Below are positions 14,321 through 30,783 of a stretch of DNA of 64,000 nt, in pieces. The DNA lies in assembly GCF_016901135.1 (NCBI RefSeq), contig NZ_JAFEVL010000045.1:744001-808000 (forward strand), read 5' to 3'. The stretch is from Martinezella lusitana (GTDB taxonomy: Bacteria; Pseudomonadota; Alphaproteobacteria; Rhizobiales; Rhizobiaceae). The position numbers and the translations under genes were made by a program. How positions within the stretch are numbered: position 1 is the stretch's first letter; the number at the start of each line of letters is the position of its first letter. The notes under the pieces are model-generated. The model was given only the letters and a program-made list of their open reading frames with translations. It was not told the DNA's origin and made no database searches.

Positions 14321-14371
14321 CACCAGAGTTTTCATATTATCATTGGCGAGGGCGCAATGGGGGAGGGCGAG

Positions 14372-15442
14372 ATGTCGAGACAGCAAAGCCCTTCCATCAA
14401 GATGGTGGCCGACAGGGCCGGCGTTTCGGTCGCGACGGTCTCGAACGTCCTCAACGGCAAGCCAACGGTTTCTCCGGATTTTGCCCGGCGCGTGAATGAT
14501 GCAGTGCGCGAGCTTGGTTACGTCGTCGATCTCAGCGCGTCGCGGCTGCGCTCGCGCAAGGCGCAGCTCGCCGGCGTCGTTGTGCCAGATCTTACCAATC
14601 CGATGTTCGCCTCCTTCGTTTCCACGCTGGAGCATCTGGCGCGCCTCGCAGACTACGATCTGGTCGTCGTATCAGCGCGCAACAATGCGGAGGAGGAGGC
14701 CGACCGGCTGCGCAAGATTCGCGCCTGGCGCCCAGCCGGCCTGATCGTCATTCCCTGCGACGGCGCCTTTGCCGAGCGCCTGCCGGATGGCTTCTTTGCG
14801 CCCGTCGTCCTTGCCGACCGCATACCCGACGCCGCGGGCTTCGATCTCATCGCCGTCGACAACGGGCCGTCGGCCGGTGCCGTCGCTGCGCATCTTGATC
14901 AACAGGGCTATGAGGATTGCCTCGTCGTCGGCACCAGTCTTTTGATCAGCAATATACGCGAGCGCTGGGAGGGTGTATGTGCATCAGTCAAGCGCATGCG
15001 GGTCGAGATGCTGGAAATCGGCATCGATGACGCCCATGGCGCACAGCTTCTGGAGGAGCGGCTGCGCCATCGCCCGCTGCCCGGCGCGCTGTTTTCGCTC
15101 GATCAGGGAACGACGCTTTTGACCTACTGCACCATGGCTGAGATCGGGCTTTCCGTGCCCGGCGATATCGCCTTTGCGAGCTTCGATGAGATGGAATGGA
15201 TGCGGCTGGTGACGCCCGGGATCACGACCGTGCGTCAGCCTGTCGAGGAAATGGCCGAGCAGGCCTGGGCGCTGCTGTTGCGGCGCATGACCGGTTCTGC
15301 CGGCAAGCCGGTTACGCGGCGCTTGCGCTGCGCCGTCGAGATCCGTGGTTCGACACCGCGGAACCCGCTTGAGGAGGCGGGCAAACTGAAACTGGGAGGA
15401 AGAAAATGGAAATTACAAGACGAACCATACTCACCGGAATAG
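14372..15442 (+). CDS. LacI family transcriptional regulator
   Basis: 356 aa. The N-terminal HTH is IKMVADRAGVSVATVSNVLN and the hinge region VVDLSASRLRSRKAQLAG; a periplasmic-binding-protein-like effector domain follows. The start at 14372 has GGGAGG five bases upstream; an ATG at 14357 is less favoured. The C-terminus (KLGGRKWKLQDEPYSPE) overlaps the next gene by 37 bases, which is unusual and suggests the coding end was extended over the ribosome-binding site of the binding-protein gene. It probably represses the ketose operon until the sugar is present. Confidence 0.9.
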   Translation: MSRQQSPSIKMVADRAGVSVATVSNVLNGKPTVSPDFARRVNDAVRELGYVVDLSASRLRSRKAQLAGVVVPDLTNPMFASFVSTLEHLARLADYDLVVVSARNNAEEEADRLRKIRAWRPAGLIVIPCDGAFAERLPDGFFAPVVLADRIPDAAGFDLIAVDNGPSAGAVAAHLDQQGYEDCLVVGTSLLISNIRERWEGVCASVKRMRVEMLEIGIDDAHGAQLLEERLRHRPLPGALFSLDQGTTLLTYCTMAEIGLSVPGDIAFASFDEMEWMRLVTPGITTVRQPVEEMAEQAWALLLRRMTGSAGKPVTRRLRCAVEIRGSTPRNPLEEAGKLKLGGRKWKLQDEPYSPE

Positions 15443-16413
15443 GTGGCGCCGTCGTTGTCGGCACCCTTGGCGGCACGATCGGCGTCGCCCAGGCTGCTGA
15501 ACCGCAGCTCGGCGTCGTGGTCAAGATCGGCGGCATCCCGTGGTTCAATGCCATGGAAGTCGGCATCAAGAAGGCCGCGCCCGAATTCAAGACGAATGCC
15601 TGGATGGTCGGGCCGACACAGGCGGACGCTGCCCAGCAGGTCCGCGCCATCGAAGACCTGATTGCCCGCAAGGTCGCGGTCATCGGTATCGTGCCGAACG
15701 ATTCCGCCGCGCTCGACCCCGTTCTCGGCCGCGCGCGGGCCGCGGGTATCAAGGTGCTGGCCCATGAAGGCCCGAGCCAGAAGGAAGCGGACTGGGACTT
15801 TGAGCTGACGACCATCGAAGGCTATGGTCAGGCGCATATGGACCTGATTGCCAAGGAGATGGGCGGGGAAGGCAAGTATATCGTCTATGTCGGCTCGCTG
15901 ACCGTTCCGCTCCACAACGCCTGGGCCGATGCGGCGATTGCCTATCAGAAGCAGAAATACCCGAAGATGCAGATGCTCGGCGATCGCTTCGGCGTTGCCG
16001 AAAGCCTGGATGAAAGCATCAAGACGACCCAGGATCAGCTTCGTGCCAATCCGGATCTCAAGGGCATCCTGACCTTCGGTTCGCAGGGGCCGATCGGCGC
16101 GGCACGCGTCCTCGACGATCGAGAGAAAGCCAAGTCGATCGCGCTGGTTGGTGGCTTCTCGCCGGGGCAGGGCGTTAAATACGTCAAGTCGGGCACGATC
16201 CGCGGTGGTTTCATCTGGAATCCGATGACGGCGGGGGAGATTTTCGTTCAGCTCGCCTCCATCCTGGCGGCCGGCAAGGAGCCGACCGACAATATGGAGC
16301 TGACCGGCGTCGGCAAGGTGCGGGTCTATCCGGACAAGAAGCTCATTCAGGCGCAGAAGCTTGAATCCCTCGATAAGCAGAATATCGACCGGCTGGTTGC
16401 ACTCGGTCTCTAG
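15406..16413 (+). CDS. Sugar ABC transporter substrate-binding protein (ribose type)
   Basis: Periplasmic binding protein of the CUT2/RbsB class, 335 aa. The N-terminus MEITRRTILTGIGGAVVVGT has a twin arginine before the hydrophobic stretch, so Tat export is likely. The mature domain includes GGIPWFNAMEVGIKKAAPEF and GIVPNDSAALDPVLGRARAA. GGGAGGA precedes the ATG. It is followed by the double ATPase and two permeases. Substrate is a ketose by context; rhamnose-, fucose- or AI-2-like binding proteins share this fold. Confidence 0.9.
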   Translation: MEITRRTILTGIGGAVVVGTLGGTIGVAQAAEPQLGVVVKIGGIPWFNAMEVGIKKAAPEFKTNAWMVGPTQADAAQQVRAIEDLIARKVAVIGIVPNDSAALDPVLGRARAAGIKVLAHEGPSQKEADWDFELTTIEGYGQAHMDLIAKEMGGEGKYIVYVGSLTVPLHNAWADAAIAYQKQKYPKMQMLGDRFGVAESLDESIKTTQDQLRANPDLKGILTFGSQGPIGAARVLDDREKAKSIALVGGFSPGQGVKYVKSGTIRGGFIWNPMTAGEIFVQLASILAAGKEPTDNMELTGVGKVRVYPDKKLIQAQKLESLDKQNIDRLVALGL

Positions 16414-16427
16414 GCGTTCCTCCCGAG

Positions 16428-16460
16428 GGCCGGCGGTTGGCCTGAGTGCCGCCGCCGGCC
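16428..16460 (+). repeat. Intercistronic stem-loop after binding-protein gene
   Basis: GGCCGGCGG (16428-16436) pairs perfectly with CCGCCGGCC (16452-16460), between the binding-protein stop and the ATPase start. No T-run follows. Position matches the other binding-protein hairpins in this window. Confidence 0.65.
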
Positions 16461-16484
16461 AACCCAAACAATCGGAGTGGATCG

Positions 16485-17978
16485 ATGAGCGATGATGTTC
16501 CGTTTCTTCGTTTAACCGGGCTGTCTAAACGGTTCGGTGGCGTGCGTGCATTGGAGGAGATCGACTGGGACGTTCGCCCAGGCGAAATCCATTGCCTCGT
16601 CGGCGAGAATGGTTGCGGCAAGTCGACGCTCATCAAGACCGTGGCGGGGGTGCATCCGCCCTCGGCGGGCACGATCGAAATCGAAGGCAAGCCCGTTCTT
16701 CCGCTTGATCCGGCCCAGGCCAAGGCTCTGGGAATCCAGGTGATCTTTCAGGATCTGTCCCTGTTTCCCAATCTTTCCGTTGCGGAAAACATCGCCGTCG
16801 AAAACCATCTCGATCGTCTCCTGAAACCAGTCAGCTGGAAGCGGATGCGTGAGCGCGCCAATGCCGTACTCGCAAGGCTCGGCTTCACCCTCGACCTCGA
16901 TCTCGTGGTATCAGACCTTTCGGTTGCCGAGCGCCAGATCGTCGCCATTGCGCGTGGCCTCGTCGCCGAGGCGCGGCTGATTTTCATGGACGAGCCGACG
17001 GCCTCGCTGACGCGAACGGAGGTCGATCGTCTACTCGGGATCGTAGGGCGGCTCAAGGCCGATGGCATTGCCGTCGTCTTCGTCTCCCACCGTCTTGATG
17101 AGGTGGTCGAGATCGCCGAGCGGGTGACCGTGATGCGCGACGGCCGCAAGGTGGGCACCTGGCCTGCCGATCAGGTGAACGAGAAGAGGATCGCGCATCT
17201 GATGACCGGGCTCGATATCGATCACTCGATTGTCGCCCGCGATATGGGCAAGGCCGAGCCTGTCCTCGAGGTCAGCGGCCTGTCACGCCGCGGCGAATTT
17301 GCCGATATCGATTTCACCCTTCGTCGCGGCGAGGTGCTGGGCATTTCCGGATTGCTGGGGTCGGGCCGCACCGAGCTTGCCCTGACGCTGTTCGGCATGC
17401 ATCGCGCCGAAAGCGGCGGCATCCGTCTGGAGGGCCGGCCGCTTGCGCCACGCTCCAACCGCGATGCCGTGCGCGCGGGCATCGCTTATGTCTCCGAGGA
17501 TCGCCTGAGCCTCGGCGTCATCCTGCAGCAATCGATCGGCGACAACATCATGCTCGCGGTCATGCGGGGCATGGCAAACCGGCTTGGGCTCATTCCCGGT
17601 AACGCACGCAGGCAGCTCGCCGAAGATTGGGTGCGGCGCCTCGCCATCAAGGTCCCATCGGCCGATCGGGCCGTGCAGACGCTTTCGGGCGGCAATCAGC
17701 AGCGGGTCGTTCTGGCGAAATGGCTCGCCACGCGGCCGAAGGTCCTGATCCTCGATTCCCCCACCGTCGGCGTCGATATCAAGAACAAGCAGGGCATCTA
17801 CGATGTGGTTGCCGATCTGGCCCGTCAGGGCGTCGCTGTCATTCTCATCTCCGACGAGGTGTCCGAACTTTTCGCGACCTGTGACCGTATCCTGCATATG
17901 CGCGCCGGTCGCATTGTCGGCGAGGCGGTGCCGGGCGAGATCACCGAAGCCAACATGAAGGAGCGCATCTATGCATGA
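16485..17978 (+). CDS. Sugar ABC transporter ATPase (two ABC domains, RbsA type)
   Basis: Cytoplasmic ATPase, 497 aa. Domain 1 has Walker A GENGCGKST, Q-loop VIFQDLSLF and Walker B RLIFMDEPTAS. The signature is degenerate as usual in this class (SVAERQIVAIARG). Domain 2 has GLLGSGRTE in place of a canonical Walker A and LSGGNQQRVVLAKWL. The start at 16485 has GGAG seven bases upstream. It overlaps the first permease gene by eight bases. Confidence 0.93.
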   Translation: MSDDVPFLRLTGLSKRFGGVRALEEIDWDVRPGEIHCLVGENGCGKSTLIKTVAGVHPPSAGTIEIEGKPVLPLDPAQAKALGIQVIFQDLSLFPNLSVAENIAVENHLDRLLKPVSWKRMRERANAVLARLGFTLDLDLVVSDLSVAERQIVAIARGLVAEARLIFMDEPTASLTRTEVDRLLGIVGRLKADGIAVVFVSHRLDEVVEIAERVTVMRDGRKVGTWPADQVNEKRIAHLMTGLDIDHSIVARDMGKAEPVLEVSGLSRRGEFADIDFTLRRGEVLGISGLLGSGRTELALTLFGMHRAESGGIRLEGRPLAPRSNRDAVRAGIAYVSEDRLSLGVILQQSIGDNIMLAVMRGMANRLGLIPGNARRQLAEDWVRRLAIKVPSADRAVQTLSGGNQQRVVLAKWLATRPKVLILDSPTVGVDIKNKQGIYDVVADLARQGVAVILISDEVSELFATCDRILHMRAGRIVGEAVPGEITEANMKERIYA

Positions 17979-19008
17979 GGATAGCCAAATGGCGGCCGGA
18001 TCGTCCTTTCTCGTGCAGTTGCGTCGTCGTCCGGAAGCATGGCTGCTGGCCGTCATCGCCGTGGTGGTGATCGTCTTTTCGCTGACGGCACGTGATTTCC
18101 TGACGCTCGCCAACATCATGGATCTGCTCGAGACCTATTCGGTGCAGGCGATCATGGCGATGGGCCTCTTCGTCGTCCTGGTTTCCGGCGGCATCGACAT
18201 CTCCTTTGCGGCGACTGCATCCGTCGCGCAATATTGCGCGGCGCTGCTCGCAACGCAGCTCGGACTTTCCGCACCCGTCGTCATCCTCTGCGGTCTCATG
18301 ATCGGTGTCGCGCTCGGCTGCCTGAATGCGCTGCTCGTCCACTATGTGCGCATCACATCCATCATCGCCACGATCGCCATGATGAGCGTCAGTTTCTCGC
18401 TGCTCATGTATTTCTCGGGCGGCAAGTCGATCTATACGCTGCCGGATTGGTGGACGGATCGCATCGTGTTCTGGCGGATGGAGACGGCATCGGGCGATAT
18501 CGTCCGGGTGACGCTTCCGATTGTCGCGATGGCGGTCGTAACCCTGTTTACATGGGCATGGATGACCCGCTCTTCGGTCGGGCGTCAGCTCTATGCCATG
18601 GGGGGAAATGCGGAGGCTGCGCGGCGTGTCGGCATGAATATCGGCCGCCTGCAATTCGTCGCCTACGGCTATCTCGGGCTTATGGCGGCGATCGCCGGTC
18701 TGCTGCAGGCCCATCGCGTCGGCGAAAGCGTGCCCAATGCCATGTACAATACCGAGCTTGCCGTCCTCTCCGCCGCGGTTCTCGGCGGCGCCAGCCTGAC
18801 GGGCGGCATCGGCACCGTGCCCGGCGTGCTGCTCGGCATCGTGCTTTTGGCTGTGCTGCAGAACGGGCTCAACCTGCTCGGCGTCTCTTCCTATTTCTTC
18901 CAGATCGTCATCGGCGTCACCATTCTGGTTTCGACCTCGATCACGGTGATCAGTTCACGGCCAGGCCGCCGCCATCGTATCATCGCGGGAGCACCATCCA
19001 ATGGCTGA
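17971..19008 (+). CDS. Sugar ABC transporter permease 1 (RbsC type)
   Basis: Inner-membrane permease, 345 aa, with 8-10 hydrophobic segments. The conserved VVLVSGGIDISFAATASVAQ and GGNAEAARRVGMNIGRLQF are typical of BPD-transp-2 permeases. It overlaps the ATPase gene upstream and the second permease downstream by eight bases each, so expression is coupled. Confidence 0.92.
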   Translation: MHEDSQMAAGSSFLVQLRRRPEAWLLAVIAVVVIVFSLTARDFLTLANIMDLLETYSVQAIMAMGLFVVLVSGGIDISFAATASVAQYCAALLATQLGLSAPVVILCGLMIGVALGCLNALLVHYVRITSIIATIAMMSVSFSLLMYFSGGKSIYTLPDWWTDRIVFWRMETASGDIVRVTLPIVAMAVVTLFTWAWMTRSSVGRQLYAMGGNAEAARRVGMNIGRLQFVAYGYLGLMAAIAGLLQAHRVGESVPNAMYNTELAVLSAAVLGGASLTGGIGTVPGVLLGIVLLAVLQNGLNLLGVSSYFFQIVIGVTILVSTSITVISSRPGRRHRIIAGAPSNG

Positions 19009-20059
19009 GCCTCCGCTTCTCTATAACCTCAACAACGGCCTTTCCGACCTGATGACGCGGATGAAGGCGGGAATTCCCGGCGCGCATACGGGGCTTGTCG
19101 TCCTGTTGGTTTTGCTGGTTGCCGGCTTTTCCCTGTTCATTCCGAACTTTGCCTCGGTCGGCACGCTGCAATCGTTCATGTACCAGCTGCCGCTGCTGGG
19201 ACTTCTGTCGCTGGCCATGATGGCGCCCCTGATAACAGGCGGTCTCAATCTCGCAATCATCGCCACGACGAACCAGTGCGCGCTGCTGATGGCCTTCATC
19301 ATGCAGAGCATGATCACGCCCGATAGCAGCGCCGCCTCGGTCGCAGCCGTCATCGTTCTGGCGCTTGTCGCCGGCATGACGTTGTGCCTTCTCATCGGCC
19401 TCATCACCGGTGCGCTCATCGCCTATACCGGCGTCCATCCGATCCTCATCACGCTCGGCACGAAATCGCTGATCGACGGCATCAGCATCTATCTGACCCG
19501 CGGCATGGCCCTTTCCGGCATACCGGATGGGTTTGCCCGTATCGGAACGATGACGATCATCGGCGTGCCGCTGATCTTCCTGCTATTAATCGTGGTGGCG
19601 GTGATCGTCAGCATCATATTGCGGCGCACCGCTTTCGGCGTCGCCTGCGCCATGATCGGCTCCAACATCGAGGCGGCGCGCTATTCGGCGATCGACACGC
19701 GTCGCGTGCTGGTCGGCGTCTATGTCATGTCGAGCCTGATCTGCTTCTTTGCCGCGCTGGTCATGCTGGCAACCTTCAATTCGGCCAGCGCGGATTATGC
19801 CCAATCCTATCTGCTGGTGACGATCCTCGCAGCCGTCCTCGGCGGCGTCGATCCTTTCGGCGGCTTCGGCACGGCCGGCGGCCTGATGCTGGCGCTTGCC
19901 ATCCTGCAGGTCATTTCTTCGGGCTTCAACCAGTTCGGCCTCAGCAACTATCTGACCGTGGCGATATGGGGCGGCACTCTCATCTTCGTCGCCATGGCCC
20001 AGACGGCGCGTCCCTATCTCATGGGGTTGCTGCCTTCACGTTTCGATGGTTCGAAATGA
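19001..20059 (+). CDS. Sugar ABC transporter permease 2 (RbsC type)
   Basis: Inner-membrane permease, 352 aa. It has MMAPLITGGLNLAIIATTNQ, the second-permease version of the family motif, and IGSNIEAARYSAIDTRRVLV. It pairs with the preceding permease as a heterodimer. Its stop overlaps the kinase start (ATGA). Confidence 0.92.
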   Translation: MAEPPLLYNLNNGLSDLMTRMKAGIPGAHTGLVVLLVLLVAGFSLFIPNFASVGTLQSFMYQLPLLGLLSLAMMAPLITGGLNLAIIATTNQCALLMAFIMQSMITPDSSAASVAAVIVLALVAGMTLCLLIGLITGALIAYTGVHPILITLGTKSLIDGISIYLTRGMALSGIPDGFARIGTMTIIGVPLIFLLLIVVAVIVSIILRRTAFGVACAMIGSNIEAARYSAIDTRRVLVGVYVMSSLICFFAALVMLATFNSASADYAQSYLLVTILAAVLGGVDPFGGFGTAGGLMLALAILQVISSGFNQFGLSNYLTVAIWGGTLIFVAMAQTARPYLMGLLPSRFDGSK

Positions 20060-21444
20060 GCATCGTTGCGGTCTTCGATATCGGCAAGACGAATGTGAAG
20101 CTGTCGGCGGCGAGCGGCGACGGCCGCGTCTTGGAAACTCTGTCGGTGCCGAATGTCGTCCGGGACGGTCCGCCCTATCGCCATCATGATCTCGACGGGC
20201 TGGACGACTGGTTGATCGACAGCTTGACCGCGCTGGGCCGCCGGCATGATATCGGCGCGATCGTCACCTGCGCCCACGGCTCCGGCGGCGTGCTGGTCGA
20301 CAGGCAAGGCGCTGCGATGCCGATGATCGACTATGAGCAGCCCACACCCGCCGACGTCGATACATGCTACAGGAGGATTGTCGGTCCCCATCGGGAGAGG
20401 GCGAGCGCCGTCATGCTTGGCGCGGCACATCTTGCGCGGCAGATGTTGTGGCAGGAGATGCACTGGCCCGAGATTTTTGCCTCGGCCTCGGCCTATCTCG
20501 CCACGCCGCAATACTGGGCCTTCCGCCTCTCCGGCGTTCGCGCAAGCGAGGTGACGAGCCTGGCCGCCCAGTCGCATCTCTGGGCATCGGCCGACGGGCG
20601 GGCGTCTGCTCTCGTGGCGAACCGCGGCTGGCAGCGGCTGATGCCGCCGATGCGACGCGCCTGGGAGACGCTCGGGCCATTGAAGCCCGAACTGGCACGA
20701 CGCACCGGTCTGAAGGCGACGACGCGTATTTTGTGCGGCGTGCACGACTCCTCAGCCAATTTCTATCGCTATCAGGCTGCTGATCTTTCCGACGTCACCG
20801 TCATCTCGACGGGAACCTGGATCGTGGCGCTGACCGATCGCACCGGCGTCGATTTCAATGTCGAGCGCCCTGGGCACTCGTGCAATGCCGATGTGTTCGG
20901 CAATCCGATGCCCGGCATGCTGACCATGGGCGGGCGTGAGTTTGCCGCCGTCGCCGCGACCGCGTCCGGCCCGGCCTCGCTGCCGGCCCTTCGGCAGATC
21001 GTCGCATCCGGGACGTTTGCAGTGCCGACATTCGGTTCGGACGAGGGGCTCTTTCCCGGCACGGCGCATCGCGGCCGTCTCGAAGGACCGCTTGCCCATG
21101 ACGAGAATGTCCGCTTCACGCAGGCTGTCCTCTACTCGGCGCTCCTGACCGCCGCCTGTGTGGATGATCTGCCGCCGACAGAGACGGTGGTGCTGGACGG
21201 CAATTTTGTCGTCGATCCCCTCTATGGCGCCGTCGTCGCGGCGCTGTTGCCGGATCGGCGCGTGTTGGTCAGCCGCAGCACCACCGGAACGGCGACAGGT
21301 GCTGCCATGCTCGCCGAGCACGAAACACGAGCGTCGCCCGTGTCGCTGGCCGCCGAGACCCCGGATATATCAGACCTTCCCGACTTTTCATCATACCAGA
21401 GGCGCTGGCGTGCCCTGGTCAAGACAATGGAGCAAGTATCGTGA
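20056..21444 (+). CDS. FGGY-family carbohydrate kinase
   Basis: Cytoplasmic sugar kinase, 462 aa. The N-terminal phosphate loop is VAVFDIGKTNVKL and the catalytic Asp231 lies in LCGVHDSSANFYRY. The C-terminal half contains STGTWIVAL, like rhamnulokinase/L-fuculokinase relatives. The ATG overlaps the permease stop by four bases. With the downstream class II aldolase it would make a ketose 1-phosphate that the aldolase cleaves to DHAP and an aldehyde. In R. leguminosarum a comparable kinase (RhaK) is also needed for rhamnose transport; whether this one is, is unknown. Confidence 0.9.
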   Translation: MSIVAVFDIGKTNVKLSAASGDGRVLETLSVPNVVRDGPPYRHHDLDGLDDWLIDSLTALGRRHDIGAIVTCAHGSGGVLVDRQGAAMPMIDYEQPTPADVDTCYRRIVGPHRERASAVMLGAAHLARQMLWQEMHWPEIFASASAYLATPQYWAFRLSGVRASEVTSLAAQSHLWASADGRASALVANRGWQRLMPPMRRAWETLGPLKPELARRTGLKATTRILCGVHDSSANFYRYQAADLSDVTVISTGTWIVALTDRTGVDFNVERPGHSCNADVFGNPMPGMLTMGGREFAAVAATASGPASLPALRQIVASGTFAVPTFGSDEGLFPGTAHRGRLEGPLAHDENVRFTQAVLYSALLTAACVDDLPPTETVVLDGNFVVDPLYGAVVAALLPDRRVLVSRSTTGTATGAAMLAEHETRASPVSLAAETPDISDLPDFSSYQRRWRALVKTMEQVS

Positions 21445-22133
21445 CGACATATGACGACAATGGCCTGCGCGAGGACATGGTGGCGGTCTGCCGCCGTATG
21501 AACGCCTCCGGTATCAATCAGGGAACGGCCGGCAACGTATCGGTGCGCAATCCCAAGGGGTTTCTGGTCACGCCGACTTCCCTGCCTTACGATATGATGC
21601 GGCCCAATGACCTGGTGCAGATGTATTTCGACGGCAGCTACGAGGGTGAGCGCCGGCCATCATCCGAATGGCGCTTTCACCGTGACATTCTCGCCTCCCG
21701 CCAGGACATCGATTGCGTGCTGCATTGCCATTCGGTCTATGCGACCACGCTTGCGGTGCATCACAAGACCATTCCGAGCTTTCACTACATGACGGGCGTT
21801 GCCGGCGGCACGACGATCCGCTGCGCGCGCTACGCCACTTTCGGCACCCAGGCCCTCTCGGATGCGGCGATCGAGGCCCTACAGGACAGGCTTGCCTGCC
21901 TGCTCGGCCAGCATGGCCAGATATCGCTCGGCAAGACGCCGGCGGCTGCACTTGCTTTGGCGATCGAGGTCGAGACCCTGTCGCGCCTCTATGTTCAGGC
22001 GCTGACGCTTGGTGAACCGCCTGTTCTCGACGACGAGGAAATGGCGCGTGTCATCCAGCAGATGAAGAATATGAGCTATGGGCAGGCGCCGGATCTCGAT
22101 GGTGTCAACGACGTGGCAAAACGCAAGCAGTAA
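21441..22133 (+). CDS. Class II aldolase (L-fuculose-phosphate aldolase-like)
   Basis: Zinc-dependent ketose-1-phosphate aldolase, 230 aa. Ligands match the FucA/AraD family: His95 and His97 (VLHCHSVYATTLA) and His158 (LGQHGQISLGK); Glu76 (PSSEWRFH) is the catalytic acid position. The GTG start overlaps the kinase stop (GTGA). It is the last gene of the ketose operon. Products would be DHAP and lactaldehyde or glycolaldehyde, depending on the sugar. Confidence 0.9.
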   Translation: MTTYDDNGLREDMVAVCRRMNASGINQGTAGNVSVRNPKGFLVTPTSLPYDMMRPNDLVQMYFDGSYEGERRPSSEWRFHRDILASRQDIDCVLHCHSVYATTLAVHHKTIPSFHYMTGVAGGTTIRCARYATFGTQALSDAAIEALQDRLACLLGQHGQISLGKTPAAALALAIEVETLSRLYVQALTLGEPPVLDDEEMARVIQQMKNMSYGQAPDLDGVNDVAKRKQ

Positions 22134-22300: not shown

Positions 22301-23227
22301 ATGAAGCGCGGCTTTCTGACAATTTATGCGGGTGAGAATGCCGCGGTTTTGCGGGCGCTTTCGGCGCCGGCGCGCGTCGACATGTTGAAGCTGCTCTGCG
22401 CCAAGGGCGCCATGAACGTCAACGAGATCGCCCGCGAGCTGGATCTGCCGCAATCGACCGTCGCCACCGGCATCATGATCCTGGAGGAGGCCGGCCTTGT
22501 CGAAACCAAGGCGGCCAAGGCGCGCAAGGGTTACCAGAAGATCTGCACGGCGCTTTACGACGAAATCCTTCTGAGCTTCGAGGATACCGCCTTCAAGCAT
22601 GACGAGGATGTGATCGAGGTCGCCATGCCGATCGGCCTCTATACGAGCTGCGAGACCCATGCGCCTTGCGGTCTGTGCTCGACCGAAGGAGTGATCGGGC
22701 TTCTCGACGTTCCCGACTATTTCCTCGATCCGCAGCGTATGCAGGCCGGCCTTCTCTGGTTCGGCCGCGGCCATGTGGAGTATAAATTTCCCAACAATGC
22801 CAAGATCTTGAACAAGGCAGTGAATGCCATTGAATTTTCGATGGAGCTGTCGTCCGAAGTGCCGGGCACCAATCCCGACTGGCCGTCCGACATCACGATC
22901 TGGGTCAATGGCGTTGCCGTCGGCACATGGACGTCGCCGGGAGACTATGGCGACAAGCGCGGGGCCTTCACGCCGGGCTGGTGGAAGCTCGAGGGCTCGC
23001 AATACGGCAAGCTCAAGACCTGGCGGATCTCGAAGAAGGGCACGTTCATCGACGGCGTCGTCGCATCCGACGTGACCGTCGACGACCTCGCCATCAGCCA
23101 GCATTCCTCGATCCGTCTGAGGATCGGCATCGCCGAGAATGCGCGCCACACGGGTGGCGTCAACATTTTCGGTCGTGGTTTCGGCAATTATGGCCGAGAT
23201 ATTCTGATGCGCATCGACCTGACGTGA
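22301..23227 (+). CDS. ArsR-type regulator with C-terminal sugar-responsive domain
   Basis: 308 aa. Residues 12-85 are an ArsR-like winged helix (LRALSAPARVDMLKLLCAKG, NVNEIARELDLPQSTVATGI). The remaining 200 residues are a Trp/Gly-rich beta-sandwich-like domain (WPSDITIWVNGVAVGTWTSP, SIRLRIGIAENARHTGGVNI), far longer than normal ArsR proteins. Cys117, Cys123 and Cys126 (SCETHAPCGLCS) form a possible metal or redox site. I recall relatives beside arabinofuranosidase genes in Firmicutes. Being next to abfA, it probably senses arabinose or arabino-oligosaccharide. Confidence 0.82.
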   Translation: MKRGFLTIYAGENAAVLRALSAPARVDMLKLLCAKGAMNVNEIARELDLPQSTVATGIMILEEAGLVETKAAKARKGYQKICTALYDEILLSFEDTAFKHDEDVIEVAMPIGLYTSCETHAPCGLCSTEGVIGLLDVPDYFLDPQRMQAGLLWFGRGHVEYKFPNNAKILNKAVNAIEFSMELSSEVPGTNPDWPSDITIWVNGVAVGTWTSPGDYGDKRGAFTPGWWKLEGSQYGKLKTWRISKKGTFIDGVVASDVTVDDLAISQHSSIRLRIGIAENARHTGGVNIFGRGFGNYGRDILMRIDLT

Positions 23228-23450
23228 AAATAAATCACATTTCCTGATATATAGCGCGCAATCGGGCTGAATCTCGAATTTATCATATTTTTTATAACTA
23301 ATTGTTTTATCATTATATTTCTGCATTCGCAGGCTGTGAATACACGATTATTTGCGCGGAATGCTCCCTCGATGGCGTTGACGACCTTATAAAACTGTAT
23401 CAAGATCAAGGTATAAGAACGAGATATATGATACATAAGGGAGGATAGCC
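23228..23450 (+). promoter_or_regulatory. AT-rich abfA control region
   Basis: A strikingly AT-rich stretch between the regulator and the arabinofuranosidase. It holds TCCTGATATA (23242-23251) and several TATCAT/ATATAT tracts. It probably carries the promoter of the arabinofuranosidase-transporter operon. Confidence 0.5.
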
Positions 23451-24959
23451 GTGAAGGCGAACGTGGTCATCCATCGCGATTTCCGAATTGCCGACATTGA
23501 CGATCGACTTTACAGCTCGTTTCTGGAGCATCTGGGCAGGGCGATCTACGGGGGCATCTATGAGCCCGGCCATCCGACCGCCGATGAGCACGGCTTTCGC
23601 CGAGATGTCATCGAACTGGTCCGCGAGCTGAATTCACCCTACTGCCGCTATCCCGGCGGTAATTTCGTTTCCGCCTATAATTGGGAAGATGGCGTCGGAC
23701 CTCGTTCTGAACGCCCGGTGCGCCTCGATCTTGCCTGGCGGACGCGTGAGAGCAACCAGATCGGCGTCAACGAGTTCGTCGATTGGTGCAAGAAAGCCAA
23801 TACCAAGCCGATGCTCGCCGTCAATCTAGGCTCACGCGGGCTGGATGATGCTCGTAACTTCCTTGAATATTGCAATCATCCCGGCGGCACCTATTGGTCG
23901 GATCTGCGTCGCAAGCACGGTTGGGCTGATCCCCATGGAGTCAAATTGTGGTGCCTCGGTAACGAGATGGATGGCCCGTGGCAGGTCGGCCACAAGTCGG
24001 CTTTTGAATATGGTCGTCTGGCCGATGAAACTGCAAAGGCCATGCGCGGTTTCGATAAATCGCTGGAACTGGTCGTCTGCGGTTCGTCGAATTCCGATAT
24101 GAAGAGCTATCCCGATTGGGAAGCCCAGGTGCTGGAACAGTGCTACGACAGCGCCGATCATATCTCGCTGCACATGTATTTCGCCAACCGTGAAAAGAAC
24201 ACGCTCAACTATCTCGCCAAAGCGGAAAAGCTTGATCGCTACATCGTCACCATCGGCGGCGTCATCGACTATATCAAGGCGAAGAAGCGCTCGAAGAAGA
24301 CGATCGGCATCTCCTTCGACGAATGGAACGTCTGGTACCATTCCAACCAGCAGGACAAGGATATCCTGGCGCGCGACGAATGGCCGGATGCGCCGCATCT
24401 GCTTGAGGATGTCTATAATTTCGAGGATGTGCTGCAGGTCGGCGGCATCCTCAACACGTTCATTCGCCGCTCTGATCGTGTGCGCATCGCCTGCATCGCC
24501 CAGCTCGTCAACGTCATTGCGCCGATCATGACGGAGGATGGCGGCCCGGCATGGCGGCAGACCATCTATTATCCCCTTTATTTCGCCTCGAAGTACGGTC
24601 GTGGCTATGCGCTGCGCCTGGTCACCGACGGTCCGACCTATGACAGCGACGAGGCGGACGACGTACCCTATCTCGATGTCTCTGCGGTTCACGATGTGGC
24701 GGCCAATATGGTCACGTTGTTCGCCGTCAACCGTCATCCCGATAGTTCGCTCGACCTCGACACCCGGCTGGAAGGCTTTGCCGACGCTCGCGTCGTCGAG
24801 CAGCACGAGATGGTTCATGAGGACTTGGGGGCGGTCAACACGGCATCCCGGCCGAATGCGGTCGTTCCGACCAGCACCAGCGATGCGAAAGTCGAGGACG
24901 GGCGGCTTCGCGCCACATTGAAGCCGCTGTCCTACACGGTGATCCGGCTGTCGGTATGA
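23451..24959 (+). CDS. abfA: Alpha-N-arabinofuranosidase, GH51
   Basis: Retaining glycoside hydrolase releasing L-arabinose from arabino-oligosaccharides, 502 aa. The acid/base is Glu172 (WCLGNEMDGPW) and the nucleophile Glu291 (GISFDEWNVWYH); RYPGGNFVSAYNWEDGVGP is the family signature. There is no signal peptide, so it acts in the cytoplasm on imported oligosaccharides. The GTG start has AAGGGAGG seven bases upstream. It leads an operon with the five-gene peptide-type ABC importer that follows. Confidence 0.95.
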   Translation: MKANVVIHRDFRIADIDDRLYSSFLEHLGRAIYGGIYEPGHPTADEHGFRRDVIELVRELNSPYCRYPGGNFVSAYNWEDGVGPRSERPVRLDLAWRTRESNQIGVNEFVDWCKKANTKPMLAVNLGSRGLDDARNFLEYCNHPGGTYWSDLRRKHGWADPHGVKLWCLGNEMDGPWQVGHKSAFEYGRLADETAKAMRGFDKSLELVVCGSSNSDMKSYPDWEAQVLEQCYDSADHISLHMYFANREKNTLNYLAKAEKLDRYIVTIGGVIDYIKAKKRSKKTIGISFDEWNVWYHSNQQDKDILARDEWPDAPHLLEDVYNFEDVLQVGGILNTFIRRSDRVRIACIAQLVNVIAPIMTEDGGPAWRQTIYYPLYFASKYGRGYALRLVTDGPTYDSDEADDVPYLDVSAVHDVAANMVTLFAVNRHPDSSLDLDTRLEGFADARVVEQHEMVHEDLGAVNTASRPNAVVPTSTSDAKVEDGRLRATLKPLSYTVIRLSV

Positions 24960-25086: not shown

Positions 25087-26988
25087 ATGCAACAGTGGAA
25101 GAAGCTTGCTTTCGGCGTCGCACTGGCCACGTTCGGCCTCATCGCGGCAGCCAAGGCTCAGGATTATACTGCCTTGCCACGCAAGGAGACGCTGATCGTC
25201 GAGAATCCGGAAGGAACGATCAAGAATCCCGGCTGGTTCAACGCCTGGGTCAATGGCGGCGGCGGTGTCTCGACCGGTCTGCAGCAGCTGACCATGGACA
25301 CGCTGTGGTACATCGACCCCGAAAAGGGGTTGGGTGGTTCTGCCTGGGACAATTCGCTTGCATCCGACAAGCCGCAATACAATGACGACTTCACACAGAT
25401 GACGGTGAAGCTGCGCAAGGGTCTCTACTGGAGCGACGGCGTCGAATTCACCGCTGACGATGTCGTCTACACCGTCAAGACGCAGATGGACCATCCGGGC
25501 ATGAACTGGAGCGCGGCTTTCTCGGTGCAGGTCGCAAGCGTCGAGGCGCCGGACCCATACACGGTCGTCTTCAAGCTGAAGAAGCCGAATTCGCGTTTCC
25601 ACGCCATCTTCACGGTGCGCTGGAACGGCGCCTGGATCATGCCGAAGCATGTCTTCGAAAAGGTTGCAGATCCCGTTCGCTATGATTTTGCCAACCCCAT
25701 CTCGCTCGGCCCCTATAAGCTGAAGGCCTTCGACCCGCAGGGCAAATGGTACACCTGGGAGAAGCGCGACGACTGGCAGCGCACCTCGCTTGCCCGCTTC
25801 GGCGAGCCCGCTCCGAAATATGTCAGCTATGTCGATCCAGGGCCGCCGGATAAGCGCACCATCGCCCAGCTCGAGCATAATCTCGATATCATTCACGACA
25901 ACACGCCCGAGGGCATGTTCACGCTGAAGGAGAAGTCGAAGACCGTCGATAGCTGGTTCCCCGGCTTCCCTTTCGCCCATCCTGATCCGACCCTGCCGGC
26001 CGTGATCTTCAACAATCAGGATTCGCTGTTTCAGAATGCTGATGTACGCTGGGCCCTGGCATTGCTCATCGATATCAAGGCGGTCGACATGGCAAGCTAT
26101 CGCGGCGCCGCGACGCTTTCCGCGCTCGGCGTTCCGCCGACGGCGATCGCCATGACGGACTATCAGGCGCCGCTGCAGGATTGGCTGAAGAACTTCGAAG
26201 TCGACACCGGCAAGCGCAAGATCAAGCCCTATGATCCGACGATCGGCCAGCAGATCGCCGATATCCTGCGCAAGCAACCAAAATACAAGGATCAGATCCC
26301 AACCGATCCGGCCGCCATCAGCGCCGCTTTTGGCTATGGCTGGTGGAAGCCCGATCCGCAGGCTGCTGCCGAACTGCTGGAAAAGGCCGGTTTCAAGAAG
26401 GTCGGCGGCAAGTGGATGACACCTGATGGCCAGCCCTTCAAGATCCGCCTGACGGTTGAGGGCGATACGCGCTCGGTCTTTACCCGTGCCGGTACCCTGA
26501 TCGCGCAGCAATGGGCGGCCTTCGGCATCGACTCCAAGGCGGCGCCGACCACAAATCTCTGGCAGGTGGGGCTACAGCCCGGCAACTATCAAGTCGCTAT
26601 CGCCTGGAGTGTGGAGACCTGGGGCGGGGATCCCGACCTATCGTTCTTCCTCGACAGCTGGCACTCGGAATTCGTTGCCAAGAAAGGTGAAAATCAGGCG
26701 CCACGCAACTGGCAGCGCTGGTCCAACCCGGAACTCGACAAGATCATCGAGAACATTCGCCAGGTGAGCGCCGATGATCCGAAGGGCGTCGAGCTCGGCA
26801 AGGACTATCTGAAGCTGGTCGCCCGCGAAATGCCGACCATCCCGCTGATGTCCTACAACGTCTTCACCTCGATGGATACGACCTACTGGAAGGGCTACCC
26901 GACCATCGCGGATCCCTACACCGACCCCGTTCCCAATTGGGCGAACTCCCGGTTGATGATGGTCAAGCTCAAGCCGGCGCAGCCGTAA
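25087..26988 (+). CDS. ABC transporter substrate-binding protein, family 5 (oligopeptide/oligosaccharide)
   Basis: Large periplasmic binding protein, 633 aa, with signal peptide MQQWKKLAFGVALATFGLIA ending near AKA. Family-5 features include MTVKLRKGLYWSDGVEFTAD, VVYTVKTQMDHPGMNW and a C-terminal ALALLIDIKAV segment. Although the family is named for peptides, members also bind oligosaccharides such as cellobiose or xylo- and arabino-oligosaccharides. Position directly after a cytoplasmic arabinofuranosidase supports the sugar role. GGGAGG lies upstream of the ATG. Confidence 0.9.
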   Translation: MQQWKKLAFGVALATFGLIAAAKAQDYTALPRKETLIVENPEGTIKNPGWFNAWVNGGGGVSTGLQQLTMDTLWYIDPEKGLGGSAWDNSLASDKPQYNDDFTQMTVKLRKGLYWSDGVEFTADDVVYTVKTQMDHPGMNWSAAFSVQVASVEAPDPYTVVFKLKKPNSRFHAIFTVRWNGAWIMPKHVFEKVADPVRYDFANPISLGPYKLKAFDPQGKWYTWEKRDDWQRTSLARFGEPAPKYVSYVDPGPPDKRTIAQLEHNLDIIHDNTPEGMFTLKEKSKTVDSWFPGFPFAHPDPTLPAVIFNNQDSLFQNADVRWALALLIDIKAVDMASYRGAATLSALGVPPTAIAMTDYQAPLQDWLKNFEVDTGKRKIKPYDPTIGQQIADILRKQPKYKDQIPTDPAAISAAFGYGWWKPDPQAAAELLEKAGFKKVGGKWMTPDGQPFKIRLTVEGDTRSVFTRAGTLIAQQWAAFGIDSKAAPTTNLWQVGLQPGNYQVAIAWSVETWGGDPDLSFFLDSWHSEFVAKKGENQAPRNWQRWSNPELDKIIENIRQVSADDPKGVELGKDYLKLVAREMPTIPLMSYNVFTSMDTTYWKGYPTIADPYTDPVPNWANSRLMMVKLKPAQP

Positions 26989-27104: not shown

Positions 27105-28109
27105 ATGACGTCCTATCCAGTTTTCGTATTGAAGCGATTCGGTCAGTTCCTGCTCGTTGTCTTCCTTGGCATCTCCGCGACCTTCTTCATCACCCATATG
27201 ACGCCGATCGATCCCGTCGAGGAAAGCATCGGCGCGATACAGCAGATGGGGCAATCCGATCCACGTGCCGTCGAACTGATGCGTCAGTCCCTTCGTGAAC
27301 TCTACGGGCTCGAGGGCTCCGTCTGGCAGCAATATCTTCACTTCTGGGGCCGCCTTGCAACGGGCGATCTCGGGCCGTCGCTATCGGCATTTCCAACGCC
27401 GGTCTCCGCCATCATCATGAGGGCGCTGCCCTGGACCATCGGCCTGATGACCGTCGCGACGCTGTTCACATTTATCCTCGGCAACATGATCGGCGCGCTC
27501 GCGGGTTATTATCGCAAGAGCATGGCGCTCAAGGCCGTCAGCCTCGTCTTCATCGCCATGCAGCCGATACCCTATTACATCCTGGCCTTCGTGCTCATCA
27601 TCCTCTTCGGCTATATCTGGCCGATCCTGCCGATCAACGGCGGCTATGAGATGAACACCGATCTGCGGCTGTCCTTTGCGCTGGTGCTCGATATTCTGCG
27701 CCACTCCATCCTGCCGGCGCTGTCGCTGATCCTTGTGGGGACGGGCGGTTGGCTGATCGGGATGCGCGCGCTCGTCTCCAATATCATCACCGAGGACTAT
27801 GTCGTTTTCGCCGAGCTCGGCGGCGTGCCGAAGCGCAAGATCCTGCGCTCTTATATCGCCCGCAATGCCATGGTACCGCAGTTCACCGGCCTTGCCATGT
27901 CGCTCGGCGCCATCTTCAACGGCACCGTGATCACCGAAATCGTCTTCGGCTATCCCGGCATCGGCAATCTGTTGATCTCGGCCGTGCATGCCGGCGACTA
28001 CAGCCTCGTATTGGGGCTGAGCGCGCTGTCGATCGTCGGTGTCGCCGCGGCAGTCTTCATCATAGACATATTGGGTCCGCTGATCGACCCGCGCATCAAG
28101 GTGGAATAG
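27105..28109 (+). CDS. ABC transporter permease (DppB/OppB type)
   Basis: Inner-membrane permease, 334 aa, six transmembrane segments. It begins MTSYPVFVLKRFGQFLLVVF. ITEDYVVFAELGGVPKRKIL is the coupling loop and ITEIVFGYPGIGNLLISAVH the conserved C-terminal pore segment. It belongs to the importer encoded by 25087-30783. Confidence 0.93.
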   Translation: MTSYPVFVLKRFGQFLLVVFLGISATFFITHMTPIDPVEESIGAIQQMGQSDPRAVELMRQSLRELYGLEGSVWQQYLHFWGRLATGDLGPSLSAFPTPVSAIIMRALPWTIGLMTVATLFTFILGNMIGALAGYYRKSMALKAVSLVFIAMQPIPYYILAFVLIILFGYIWPILPINGGYEMNTDLRLSFALVLDILRHSILPALSLILVGTGGWLIGMRALVSNIITEDYVVFAELGGVPKRKILRSYIARNAMVPQFTGLAMSLGAIFNGTVITEIVFGYPGIGNLLISAVHAGDYSLVLGLSALSIVGVAAAVFIIDILGPLIDPRIKVE

Positions 28110-28112
28110 GCC

Positions 28113-28970
28113 ATGCTCACGATCGTTCGCGACCTTGCCCGCCAGAACACGGAGTTCCTCTTCGGTCTCATGCTGCTCGCTGTGATCGTCGGGCTCGTGA
28201 TCCTGTCCTACTTCTCGCCCTACGGTCCTTCCGACATCTATCTGCTGCCGCCCGACATGCCGCCCGATGGTCAATACTGGCTGGGAACGACCTCGCGCGG
28301 TCAGGACGTCTTCTGGCAGCTCACGACCGCTCTCAGAAATACCCTTTATTTCGGCATCGGCGTCGCCGTCCTGTCGCGCATCATCTCGCTGGTGGTGGGA
28401 CTGGTGGCGGGCTATGCCGGCGGCTTCGTCGATCGGGTGCTGATGGCGATCAATGACAGCATCATGGTCATTCCGCAGTTCCCGGTGCTGATCCTGTTCT
28501 ATTTCGTGCTGAAGGACGGAATGACCTGGACGGTGCTCATCGTCGTCATGGCCTCGCTCGGCTGGTCCTATGATGCCCGCCTGATCCGCTCGGTGGCGAT
28601 CAGCCTGAAGACGCGCCCCTTTACCACGCAGAGTGTCTATTCCGGCATGAGCATGCGCAAGATCCTTCTTGAGGAGCATCTGCCCTACGTGCTGCCGATC
28701 GTCTTCGCCACGACCATGAACAACATGATCTGGTCGATCGGCATGGAGATCACGCTCTCGGTGCTCGGCTTCACGGACATCGAGACGCCGACCATGGGCA
28801 TGATGATCTATTGGGCCAATGCGCATTCGGCGCTGATCGCCGGAACGTGGTGGTGGGTTGCCGCACCGGTCGCCGCCATCATCGTCCTGTTCCTGGCGCT
28901 CTTCCTGCTGTCGATGTCGATGAACGAATACAATGATCCGCGCAGTCGCTTGAACCGGATGGGGGGCTAG
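28113..28970 (+). CDS. ABC transporter permease (DppC/OppC type)
   Basis: Inner-membrane permease, 285 aa. WLGTTSRGQDVFWQLTTALR is the signature region of DppC-type subunits, and MSMRKILLEEHLPYVLPIVF resembles the coupling loop. Three bases separate it from the upstream permease gene and two from the downstream ATPase gene. Confidence 0.93.
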   Translation: MLTIVRDLARQNTEFLFGLMLLAVIVGLVILSYFSPYGPSDIYLLPPDMPPDGQYWLGTTSRGQDVFWQLTTALRNTLYFGIGVAVLSRIISLVVGLVAGYAGGFVDRVLMAINDSIMVIPQFPVLILFYFVLKDGMTWTVLIVVMASLGWSYDARLIRSVAISLKTRPFTTQSVYSGMSMRKILLEEHLPYVLPIVFATTMNNMIWSIGMEITLSVLGFTDIETPTMGMMIYWANAHSALIAGTWWWVAAPVAAIIVLFLALFLLSMSMNEYNDPRSRLNRMGG

Positions 28971-28972
28971 GG

Positions 28973-29956
28973 ATGGAGGCTGTGGTCGAGGTCACCAACC
29001 TCAAGGCCTATTATAGGGCCTTCCTCTATGGCATCGATCGCGAAGTGCGCGCGGTCGATGATGTCAGCCTGAGGATCGGTCGCGGTGAGATCTATGGTGT
29101 CGCCGGCGAATCGAGCAGCGGCAAGACGACATTGATCAAGACCATTGCCGGCGCCATCCGGCCGCCGCTTCGGGTGGTTTCGGGCTCGGTCAAGTTTCAC
29201 TTCAACGGTGCCACGCAGGATATCTACGCTATGGCGCCCGAGCAGCGGGCGGCGCTTAGGTGGCGGCATCTATCCTACATCATGCAGGGCTCGATGAACG
29301 TGCTCAATCCTGTCAGGCGCATCCGCCACTCGTTCACGGATTTTGCCTTTCGCCACATGAAGGTCGATCGCGCCGCCTTCTTCGATCGGGTCGCCGCTCA
29401 TCTGCAGCGCCTGAAACTCGATGCCGATCTCCTCAATGCCTATCCGCATGAATTGTCCGGCGGCATGCGCCAGCGCATGACGATTGCGCTCGCCACCATC
29501 CTGACGCCGGAATTCATCATCGCCGACGAGCCGACGACCGCGCTCGATGTCATCGTGCAGCGCGATGTCCTGCAGATGATCCGCGAGATCCAGCGCGAGA
29601 TGGGGTCCTCCTTCCTATTCGTCACCCATGACATGGGCGTGCATGCCGCCGTCTCCGACCGCATCGGCATCGTCTATGCCGGCCGGCTGGTCGAGGAGGC
29701 GCCGACGCGCAAGCTCTTTCATCTGCCGCTGCACCCCTATACGCAGCATCTGGTGGCGAGCTTGCCGCGGATCGGCGATCTCTCCACCCGTCCCTCGCTT
29801 GAGGGCAGGCCGCCCAATCTCGCCATGCCGCCGGAAGGGTGCCGTTTTCATCCGAGGTGTCCCAAGCGCATGGATATCTGCAGCCGCGAAGTGCCGCCAA
29901 TGGTGATGGTCGAGCCGGATCGGCGCGTTGCCTGTTTCGCCGTGACGGGAGGATAA
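28973..29956 (+). CDS. ABC transporter ATPase (DppD/OppD type)
   Basis: Cytoplasmic ATPase, 327 aa. Walker A is GESSSGKTT, the signature [14 protein letters not shown] and Walker B EFIIADEPTTALD. The C-terminal oligopeptide-ATPase extension has CRFHPRCPKRMDIC, whose cysteines bind an Fe-S cluster in some DppD/OppD relatives. It pairs with the next ATPase. Confidence 0.93.
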   Translation: MEAVVEVTNLKAYYRAFLYGIDREVRAVDDVSLRIGRGEIYGVAGESSSGKTTLIKTIAGAIRPPLRVVSGSVKFHFNGATQDIYAMAPEQRAALRWRHLSYIMQGSMNVLNPVRRIRHSFTDFAFRHMKVDRAAFFDRVAAHLQRLKLDADLLNAYPHELSGGMRQRMTIALATILTPEFIIADEPTTALDVIVQRDVLQMIREIQREMGSSFLFVTHDMGVHAAVSDRIGIVYAGRLVEEAPTRKLFHLPLHPYTQHLVASLPRIGDLSTRPSLEGRPPNLAMPPEGCRFHPRCPKRMDICSREVPPMVMVEPDRRVACFAVTGG

Positions 29957-29958
29957 AG

Positions 29959-30783
29959 TTGAGCGACCTGCTTTCACTCTCGCATGTCACCAAGGTTTAC
30001 CGTCAGGGCGGTATGCTCAGCCGTCGTCACATCACGGCTGTTCGCGATGTCAGCCTGACGCTCGGCGAAGAGCCGGAAATCCTTTCCATCGTCGGCGAAT
30101 CCGGTTCGGGCAAATCAACCATCGCGGCGATGATCCTTGGCCAGACGGCCCCGACCGAGGGCAGTCTGAATTTTCGCGGGCGGCCGGTTGCCGTTCATGG
30201 AAGAGTTGAGCGACGCGCCTTCATGCGCGAAGTTCAACCAGTACTTCAAAACCCGTTCGAGGCGTTCAATCCACTTAAGAGGGTCGATCGCTATCTTTTT
30301 GAAACAGCGCGAAATTTCGCGCCGGATGGCAAGCGGCCGAGCCGCGCCGAAGTCGAGCGCATGGCGGATGCGGCGCTCGCCCATATCGGCTTGACGCTTG
30401 CCGAAGTGAAGGGGCGGTTTCCGCATGAATTGTCGGGCGGTCAGCTGCAGCGAACCGCCATTGCGCGTGCGCTCATCCCGCAACCCAGGCTGCTGGTCGC
30501 AGACGAGCCCGTCTCCATGGTCGACGCCTCCCTTAGAATGGCGATCGTCAATCTCTTCAGCCAGCTGAAGAAGGAACTTGGCCTGTCGATCATCTACATC
30601 ACCCATGATCTTGCGACGGCCTATTACATCAGCGACCGCATCATCATCATGAAGAAGGGCGAGATCGTTGAAGAAGGCGGCGCGCGCGCCGTTCTCGACA
30701 ACCCGCAGCATCCCTATTCGCGGGCCTTGAAGGAGGCGGTCCTATCCGCCAGCCCGGATATGGAGCCAGCTTCGCTAGTGTGA
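29959..30783 (+). CDS. ABC transporter ATPase (DppF/OppF type)
   Basis: Cytoplasmic ATPase, 274 aa from a TTG start at 29959 with GGAGG six bases upstream; the upstream in-frame ATG would overlap the previous gene by 118 bases and is rejected. Walker A GESGSGKST, signature LSGGQLQRTAIARAL, Walker B LLVADEPVSM. It lacks the usual C-terminal oligopeptide extension. Last gene of the importer operon. Confidence 0.92.
   Translation: MSDLLSLSHVTKVYRQGGMLSRRHITAVRDVSLTLGEEPEILSIVGESGSGKSTIAAMILGQTAPTEGSLNFRGRPVAVHGRVERRAFMREVQPVLQNPFEAFNPLKRVDRYLFETARNFAPDGKRPSRAEVERMADAALAHIGLTLAEVKGRFPHELSGGQLQRTAIARALIPQPRLLVADEPVSMVDASLRMAIVNLFSQLKKELGLSIIYITHDLATAYYISDRIIIMKKGEIVEEGGARAVLDNPQHPYSRALKEAVLSASPDMEPASLV

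Follow-up and report, generated by a model that had tools for sequence, protein, structure and literature searches.

An ArsR-type regulator with a predicted carbohydrate-binding-like domain beside an arabinofuranosidase and transporter operon in Rhizobiaceae

What signal is read by a protein that joins an ArsR-like DNA-binding domain to a large C-terminal domain, and that is encoded next to an arabinofuranosidase gene? The question is raised by a gene in a 64,000 nt stretch of rhizobial DNA, analysed here at its full length and referred to as the window, from a genome of 7.43 Mb; the closest named match is from Rhizobium lusitanum P1-7 (99% identical). The open reading frame starts with ATG at 22301, stops with TGA at 23225–23227 and encodes 308 aa, and since most of the frame remains conserved even in relatives with as little as about 30–45% identity, it does not represent a chance ORF. 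The reading we prefer, with a probability of about 0.5, is that the protein is a dedicated local regulator, most likely acting by repression, of an operon importing and hydrolysing arabinose-containing oligosaccharides, which would be sensed by a domain resembling carbohydrate-binding modules (CBM). The features on which this reading is based are listed in Table 1.

Table 1. Positions within the window of the regulator gene, its predicted domains, the operator-like sites and the genes presumed to be regulated.
Feature	Position	Strand	Remarks
Regulator gene, 308 aa	22301..23227	+	Winged helix (about residues 14–90) and predicted CBM-like beta-sandwich (about residues 100–308)
Winged-helix DNA-binding domain, residues about 14–90	22340..22570	+	Pfam HTH_5; structural match 1uly
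Effector domain, residues 99–308	22595..23224	+	Outside Pfam families; predicted beta-sandwich like CBM36/CBM6
C117..C126 codons (C-x5-C-x2-C)	22649..22678	+	C123 alone of them near-invariant in the family
Operator-like site 1, TCCTGATATAAA	22258..22269	+	32–43 nt before regulator start
Operator-like site 2, TCCTGATATATA	23242..23253	+	Just after regulator stop
Operator-like half-site (GTATCAA on the + strand)	23397..23403	-	
Operator-like site 3, ATATGATACATA	23426..23437	+	Directly precedes the ribosome-site-like GGGAGG of arfA
arfA, GH51-type alpha-L-arabinofuranosidase, presumed regulated	23451..24959	+	NF051901; Alpha-L-AF_C PF06964
Solute-binding protein (SBP) of peptide/opine-type (PepT) ABC transporter, presumed regulated	25087..26988	+	Orthologs adjoin the regulator in most Rhizobium loci
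PepT transporter, permeases (27105 and 28113) and ATPases (28973 and about 29839), two genes each	27105..30783	+	Translations; synteny

The N-terminal part of the protein matched Pfam HTH_5 (PF01022) at residues 23–68 with 36.9 bits (cut-off 22), which bears out the ArsR-like winged helix of the original prediction and places the protein in the ArsR family as broadly defined, and structure comparison of the predicted model matched this domain to 1uly with a Z of 13.0 (rmsd 1.5, 86 residues). With the NCBIfam metalloregulator model NF033788 it scored 47.9 bits, below the curated cut-off of 55, as did six of its relatives (35.2–52.8 bits). The winged helix is common to the regulator and to ArsR/SmtB metalloregulators such as CzrA, SmtB and BigR, from which the regulator differs in its about 200 extra residues, its NF033788 score and its sugar-gene neighbourhood. 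By sequence criteria, it is an ArsR-type protein in the broad sense, and lies outside the narrow class of ArsR/SmtB metalloregulators.

The C-terminal domain matched no Pfam family at E ≤ 1 when residues 99–308 were searched, and in a search of 41 diverse effector domains no CBM model was among the nine Pfam families matched at E ≤ 0.5, all of which were matched by a single member (best E-values 0.017–0.24), while a profile of the 41 domains gave one unrelated chance-level match among PDB sequences. AlphaFold2 modelled the whole regulator from 28 aligned sequences (pLDDT 81.7, pTM 0.63) and residues 99–308 alone from 27 sequences (pLDDT 81.2, pTM 0.83), the latter consisting mostly of strand and loop plus two short helices, with low confidence at domain residues 17–24 (containing C117), 35–47 and 90–92. 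The top solved match to the domain model was the alpha-1,6-glucosyltransferase 5x7o (Z 9.1), alongside CBM36 1w0n (Z 9.0, rmsd 2.8, 115 residues aligned) and CBM6 with neoagarohexaose (2cdo, Z 9.0, rmsd 3.4, 124 residues; 2cdp, Z 8.9), and the remaining matches were mostly carbohydrate-binding modules or carbohydrate-active enzymes. Non-sugar proteins were present in the same list (Cry toxins, BcsB, pro-TGF-beta and an EphA4 entry), and the absence of a protein from such lists proves nothing. In the whole-protein model 2cdp aligned across residues 105–305 (Z 10.3), and for the effector domain plain Foldseek ranked CBM36 second after a Cry toxin, one match being at E ≤ 0.001.

The structure prediction that had been proposed as a check on the C-terminal domain thus returned a beta-sandwich with CBM36 and CBM6 among its nearest solved structures, in agreement with the large carbohydrate-binding-like sandwich expected earlier. 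As best Z values of 7–8 are typical for models without a clear match, the values of around 9 are modestly above this level, and a CBM-like fold is not in itself proof of sugar binding. The model suggests that the effector domain resembles a carbohydrate-binding sandwich, with a predicted fold that would be similar to that of CBM36, CBM6 and CBM35 (Z 8–9), from which it differs by the absence of a sequence match and by its fusion to a DNA-binding domain. Several polar and aromatic residues are near-invariant among 42 sequences with <70% identity (W153, Y161, E182, D197, N203, D215, W227, W228 and Q234). We consider it likely that the C-terminal domain binds sugar.

The gene downstream of the regulator scored 894.9 bits with the NCBIfam ArfA model NF051901 (cut-off 625), and the regulator gene is the head of a longer conserved cluster which includes the ABC transporter. 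Within 199 Rhizobiaceae genomes, the full-length regulator was present in 35, ArfA (counted at E ≤ 1e-60) in 37 and both in 35, with G043 and G088 having ArfA without the regulator; the regulator count is for full-length proteins only, as a wider tally of 125 included many short ArsR-domain matches. The two genes were adjacent in all 35 genomes, and 34 of these pairs had arfA on the strand of the regulator and no more than 360 nt downstream of it, the remaining pair being convergent. The co-occurrence has a Fisher p of about 6e-37, a statistic which ignores shared ancestry. The location beside an arabinofuranosidase gene, as originally noted, is therefore a tight and conserved link. A second regulator copy in genome G165 (L194) had none of the marker genes nearby.

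A PepT-type transporter lies beside the pair in most Rhizobium loci and in Mesorhizobium and Roseomonas, and a CUT1-type transporter in Sinorhizobium, Roseibium, Thalassospira and a few Rhizobium loci, so that the transporter type changes and the arabinofuranosidase is the commoner constant. Loci L096–L099 (with Skermanella), L101 and L202 have a PepT transporter and no ArfA marker in the stretch examined. On the Bacillota/Deinococcus side, GH51, GH43 or GH2 genes were found within about 8 kb of 29/33 regulators with flanks, 26 of them from one marker search and three (L167, L173, L177) from another; the four without were L175 (contig end), L183, L186 and L187. The examined stretches of L180, L182 and L194 likewise contained no such enzyme. 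In three genomes from the same phylum as Lacrimispora, 14/15 regulator regions contained a GH marker, compared with 2/20 arbitrary 16-kb control regions, which are longer than the regulator regions; one marker was derived from regulator region L173, and all regions that it matched were also matched by another marker. Upstream of the regulator, the window contains genes for a LacI-type regulator, a sugar ABC transporter, an FGGY kinase and a class II aldolase (14357–22133), which probably form a separate sugar cluster, as a kinase was found beside the regulator solely in L032 among the loci compared.

De novo 7-mer enrichment in upstream and downstream regions of 31 alphaproteobacterial loci gave TGATACA as top word (16 loci, 1.3 expected), and when only the upstream regions of 26 loci from other genera were used it gave CTGATAC (10, 0.4 expected). 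Sixteen of these 26 loci, which are partly close kin and not fully independent (L104/L106; L193/L194 from one genome), had the motif YTGATAY upstream of the regulator, against a mean of 1.7 and a maximum of 6 in 500 shuffles; the motif was absent upstream in the other 10, including the GH51-UgpC-CUT1 clusters L195–L197, L201, L207 and L208. In 10 Rhizobium upstream regions alone the top word was CGATATA (6/10), and TGATACA and TGATATA each occurred in 4; in the Bacillota/Deinococcus upstream regions the 20 best words did not include TGATAY. Motif density was 37 sites in 11.6 kb upstream compared with 66 in 334 kb elsewhere for a set of 26 loci made up of L083 and 25 from outside Rhizobium, nearly all of which were already in the motif discovery set.

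Some motif copies form TGATACATATCA inverted repeats (L096, L098 and L101). The full CTGATA-NN-TATCAG palindrome was absent from the locus in the window, and in the own genome it was found with one mismatch in four places (8 rows for both strands; 4 rows for the reversed control), none of them at the locus. The sites in the window are therefore half-site-like, and we do not claim a genome-wide regulon. With two mismatches allowed, the 12-mer WTCTGATAYATA was not enriched in the whole window (5 found, 4.15 expected); three of the five copies cluster at the regulator locus, and the motif itself was derived from such regions. A promoter scan of the plus strand for arfA gave nothing convincing apart from one 9-of-12 match at 23291–23319. 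The site at 23426 abuts the arfA ribosome site, a position that suits repression.

A link of this gene arrangement with the rhizosphere comes from R. leguminosarum, in which the PepT SBP gene pRL110281, located next to the arabinofuranosidase gene pRL110282, was elevated in rhizospheres, and its mutant had a competitiveness index of 0.44 on pea (PMC3333776). That gene was not induced on arabinose, which fits an oligosaccharide rather than arabinose as the signal, and an arabinogalactan array was also run (PMC3333776). The pRL11 record of R. leguminosarum (now johnstonii) 3841 has the SBP, the arabinofuranosidase and the regulator ortholog RL_RS31185 in the same gene order as the window; the regulator is not mentioned in those passages of PMC3333776 that describe the uptake locus. 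From the gene numbering, RL_RS31185 would be pRL110283. The latter is listed as a 'putative DNA-binding protein' with a change of +2.0 in a praR mutant (PMC4149787), and if the ortholog (L211, 5998–6924) is indeed pRL110283, this 2.0-fold increase hints at a connection with PraR control.

As the adjacent genes import and cut arabinose-containing plant sugars, the regulator probably switches them on when such sugars arrive. We propose that a winged-helix dimer would bind TGATAY-type sites, palindromic in some species, before its own gene and arfA, and would thereby block transcription. Arabinofuranosyl oligosaccharides imported by the ABC transporter would bind the CBM-like beta-sandwich, the resulting change would free the DNA from the regulator, and ArfA would then remove the inducer. 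The winged helix, the gene linkage and the conserved motif in this scheme come from computation, as does the sandwich fold in the form of a predicted model; repression, dimerisation, the class of ligand and the allosteric step are inferred. That the protein acts locally on the arfA/transporter operon is very probable in our view, that it does so as a repressor is probable, and an oligosaccharide is rather more probable as effector than a monosaccharide; these gradings, like that of sugar binding, are our own judgement and may be correlated.

In classical ArsR/SmtB metalloregulators a conserved cysteine metal site is present, for instance in helix alpha3. A three-cysteine metal or redox switch had also been suggested for this protein, and SCETHAPCGLCS does contain the C117-x5-C123-x2-C126 arrangement. 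A sensor modelled on classical ArsR/SmtB or BigR proteins, in which these residues and C82 would bind metal or form a disulfide controlling DNA binding, would agree with the ArsR-type winged helix and with the conservation of C123 (149 of 150 distinct family sequences) and C82 (142 of 150), C82 being located in the winged helix and missing from the earlier account. Conservation is lower for C126 (114/150) and C117 (just 86/150), C126 being missing, mostly with Ala in its place, from 36 of the 37 sequences <50% identical to the query, and residue 117 being variable. Since C117 and C126 are so often absent, the trio is lineage-specific and was rejected as a general mechanism of the family; the suggested switch was thus not supported. 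With residues 34–81 free of cysteine and C117 and C126 unconserved, a conserved metalloregulator cysteine site was not found, and as the marked neighbours are sugar genes, we consider metal or thiol-redox sensing highly improbable. C123, followed by a near-invariant Gly, may be structural or close to the ligand.

Other alternatives retain the sugar locus and differ in ligand, sign of control or role of the C-terminal domain. The same local regulator could respond to free L-arabinose or to a different small sugar or a derivative of one, as ArfA releases arabinose and the family is also found beside GH43 and GH2 genes, which may indicate a shared small sugar. This is unlikely given the resemblance of the predicted domain to oligosaccharide-binding modules and the lack of pRL110281 induction in arabinose-grown R. 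leguminosarum cultures (PMC3333776). The sequence itself does not show whether control is positive or negative, and the protein could be an activator responding to the same ligand. However, the sites are near start codons with one abutting the arfA ribosome site, and ArsR-type proteins are mostly repressors. Furthermore, the mapping of transcription starts in Caldicellulosiruptor led to the view that the ArbR sites there are repressor-like (PMC8579813), and activation is thus quite improbable. Finally, a sandwich is a frequent type of fold and the Z is modest, which would allow for a dimerisation or protein-interaction module without sugar binding, docking for example to the transporter ATPase; the many near-invariant polar and aromatic residues and the change of transporter type between loci make such a role very improbable.

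We found no binding, expression or mutant data in the literature on the regulator itself. The use of the ArsR scaffold in sugar control, called rarely described in the original prediction, has indeed seldom been described, but has a precedent in print: ArbA (also ArbR) of Caldicellulosiruptor bescii is a predicted ArsR-family regulator of abfA, and was termed the first ArsR-family regulator in carbohydrate utilisation (PMC8579813). Both proteins belong to the ArsR family and are encoded next to an arabinofuranosidase gene, with predicted ArbA sites in the shared promoter region, whereas ArbA is divergent from abfA, unlike the regulator in the window; the likeness is one of description, and the passages on ArbA in PMC8579813 include no effector domain. 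What appears to be new compared with ArbA is the predicted CBM-like effector domain and its breadth, the operator-like motif and the rhizosphere link. An ArsR-family gene named araRS in an arabinose cluster of Lactobacillus rossiae shares this family label and the type of gene cluster, and is likewise comparable by description only (PMC4855831).

The regulator family is widespread and poorly described, with relatives in Alphaproteobacteria, Bacillota and Deinococcus. Relatives were found in 266 plasmid records (259 across at least 80% of the query), mainly from Rhizobium and Sinorhizobium, and also from Deinococcus, Enterococcus, Roseibium and others. Beyond its own family the distribution is sporadic, as residues 91–308 matched 8/299 genomes of the phylum, all of them Rhizobiaceae, and the full protein matched 5/190 genomes of the class at E ≤ 1e-15, including its own. 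All eight matches in the 299 genomes were in frames of 312–388 aa, and no effector domain without winged helix was detected there (E ≤ 0.001). The effector-domain profile matched 26/245 genomes belonging to the same class as a Lacrimispora genome, with 27/29 matches in frames of 300–346 aa and a weak match in one 2408-aa frame. We give even odds to a one-component regulator family in Alphaproteobacteria, Bacillota and Deinococcus which would sense plant-glycan oligosaccharides via a cytosolic CBM-like domain on an ArsR winged helix, with four to seven full-length copies in some genomes, each tuned to an adjacent GH51, GH43 or GH2 pathway. If true, many genes annotated just as 'ArsR family transcriptional regulator' or similar would gain a mechanism and an effector domain that can be named, and the plant sugars that they sense would become predictable. 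It would also identify the switch of a rhizobial uptake locus that is reported to matter for root competitiveness, and the regulator could be used as a biosensor of arabino-oligosaccharides in root exudate.

Several members stand out by copy number or context. In the phylum of Lacrimispora, genomes G515, G559 and G712 contain seven, five and four full-length paralogs, which usually adjoin a GH51, GH43 or GH2 gene and are often divergent from it, representing a lineage expansion that perhaps serves the sensing of different glycans. A 752-aa frame in genome G707 of that phylum (L189, 4613–6868, minus strand) has a lipoprotein-like start and no Pfam match. It includes an effector domain, 34% identical to that of Lacrimispora, but no winged helix, and judging from this frame the domain may have an extracellular role as well. 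On an Enterococcus faecalis plasmid (L125, 7980–8870), a family member adjoins an unannotated GH51-like frame (56% identity) and NAD-biosynthesis genes. Finally, plasmid pMl5 of Sinorhizobium medicae ml60 contains a 71-aa frame (L127, 5052–5267) which ends in the last residues of the regulator and is flanked by site-2-protease-like and beta-lactamase-like genes. In S. meliloti (L207) the same genes lie on either side of the complete operon, and the operon has therefore apparently been deleted from pMl5, leaving a remnant of the regulator.
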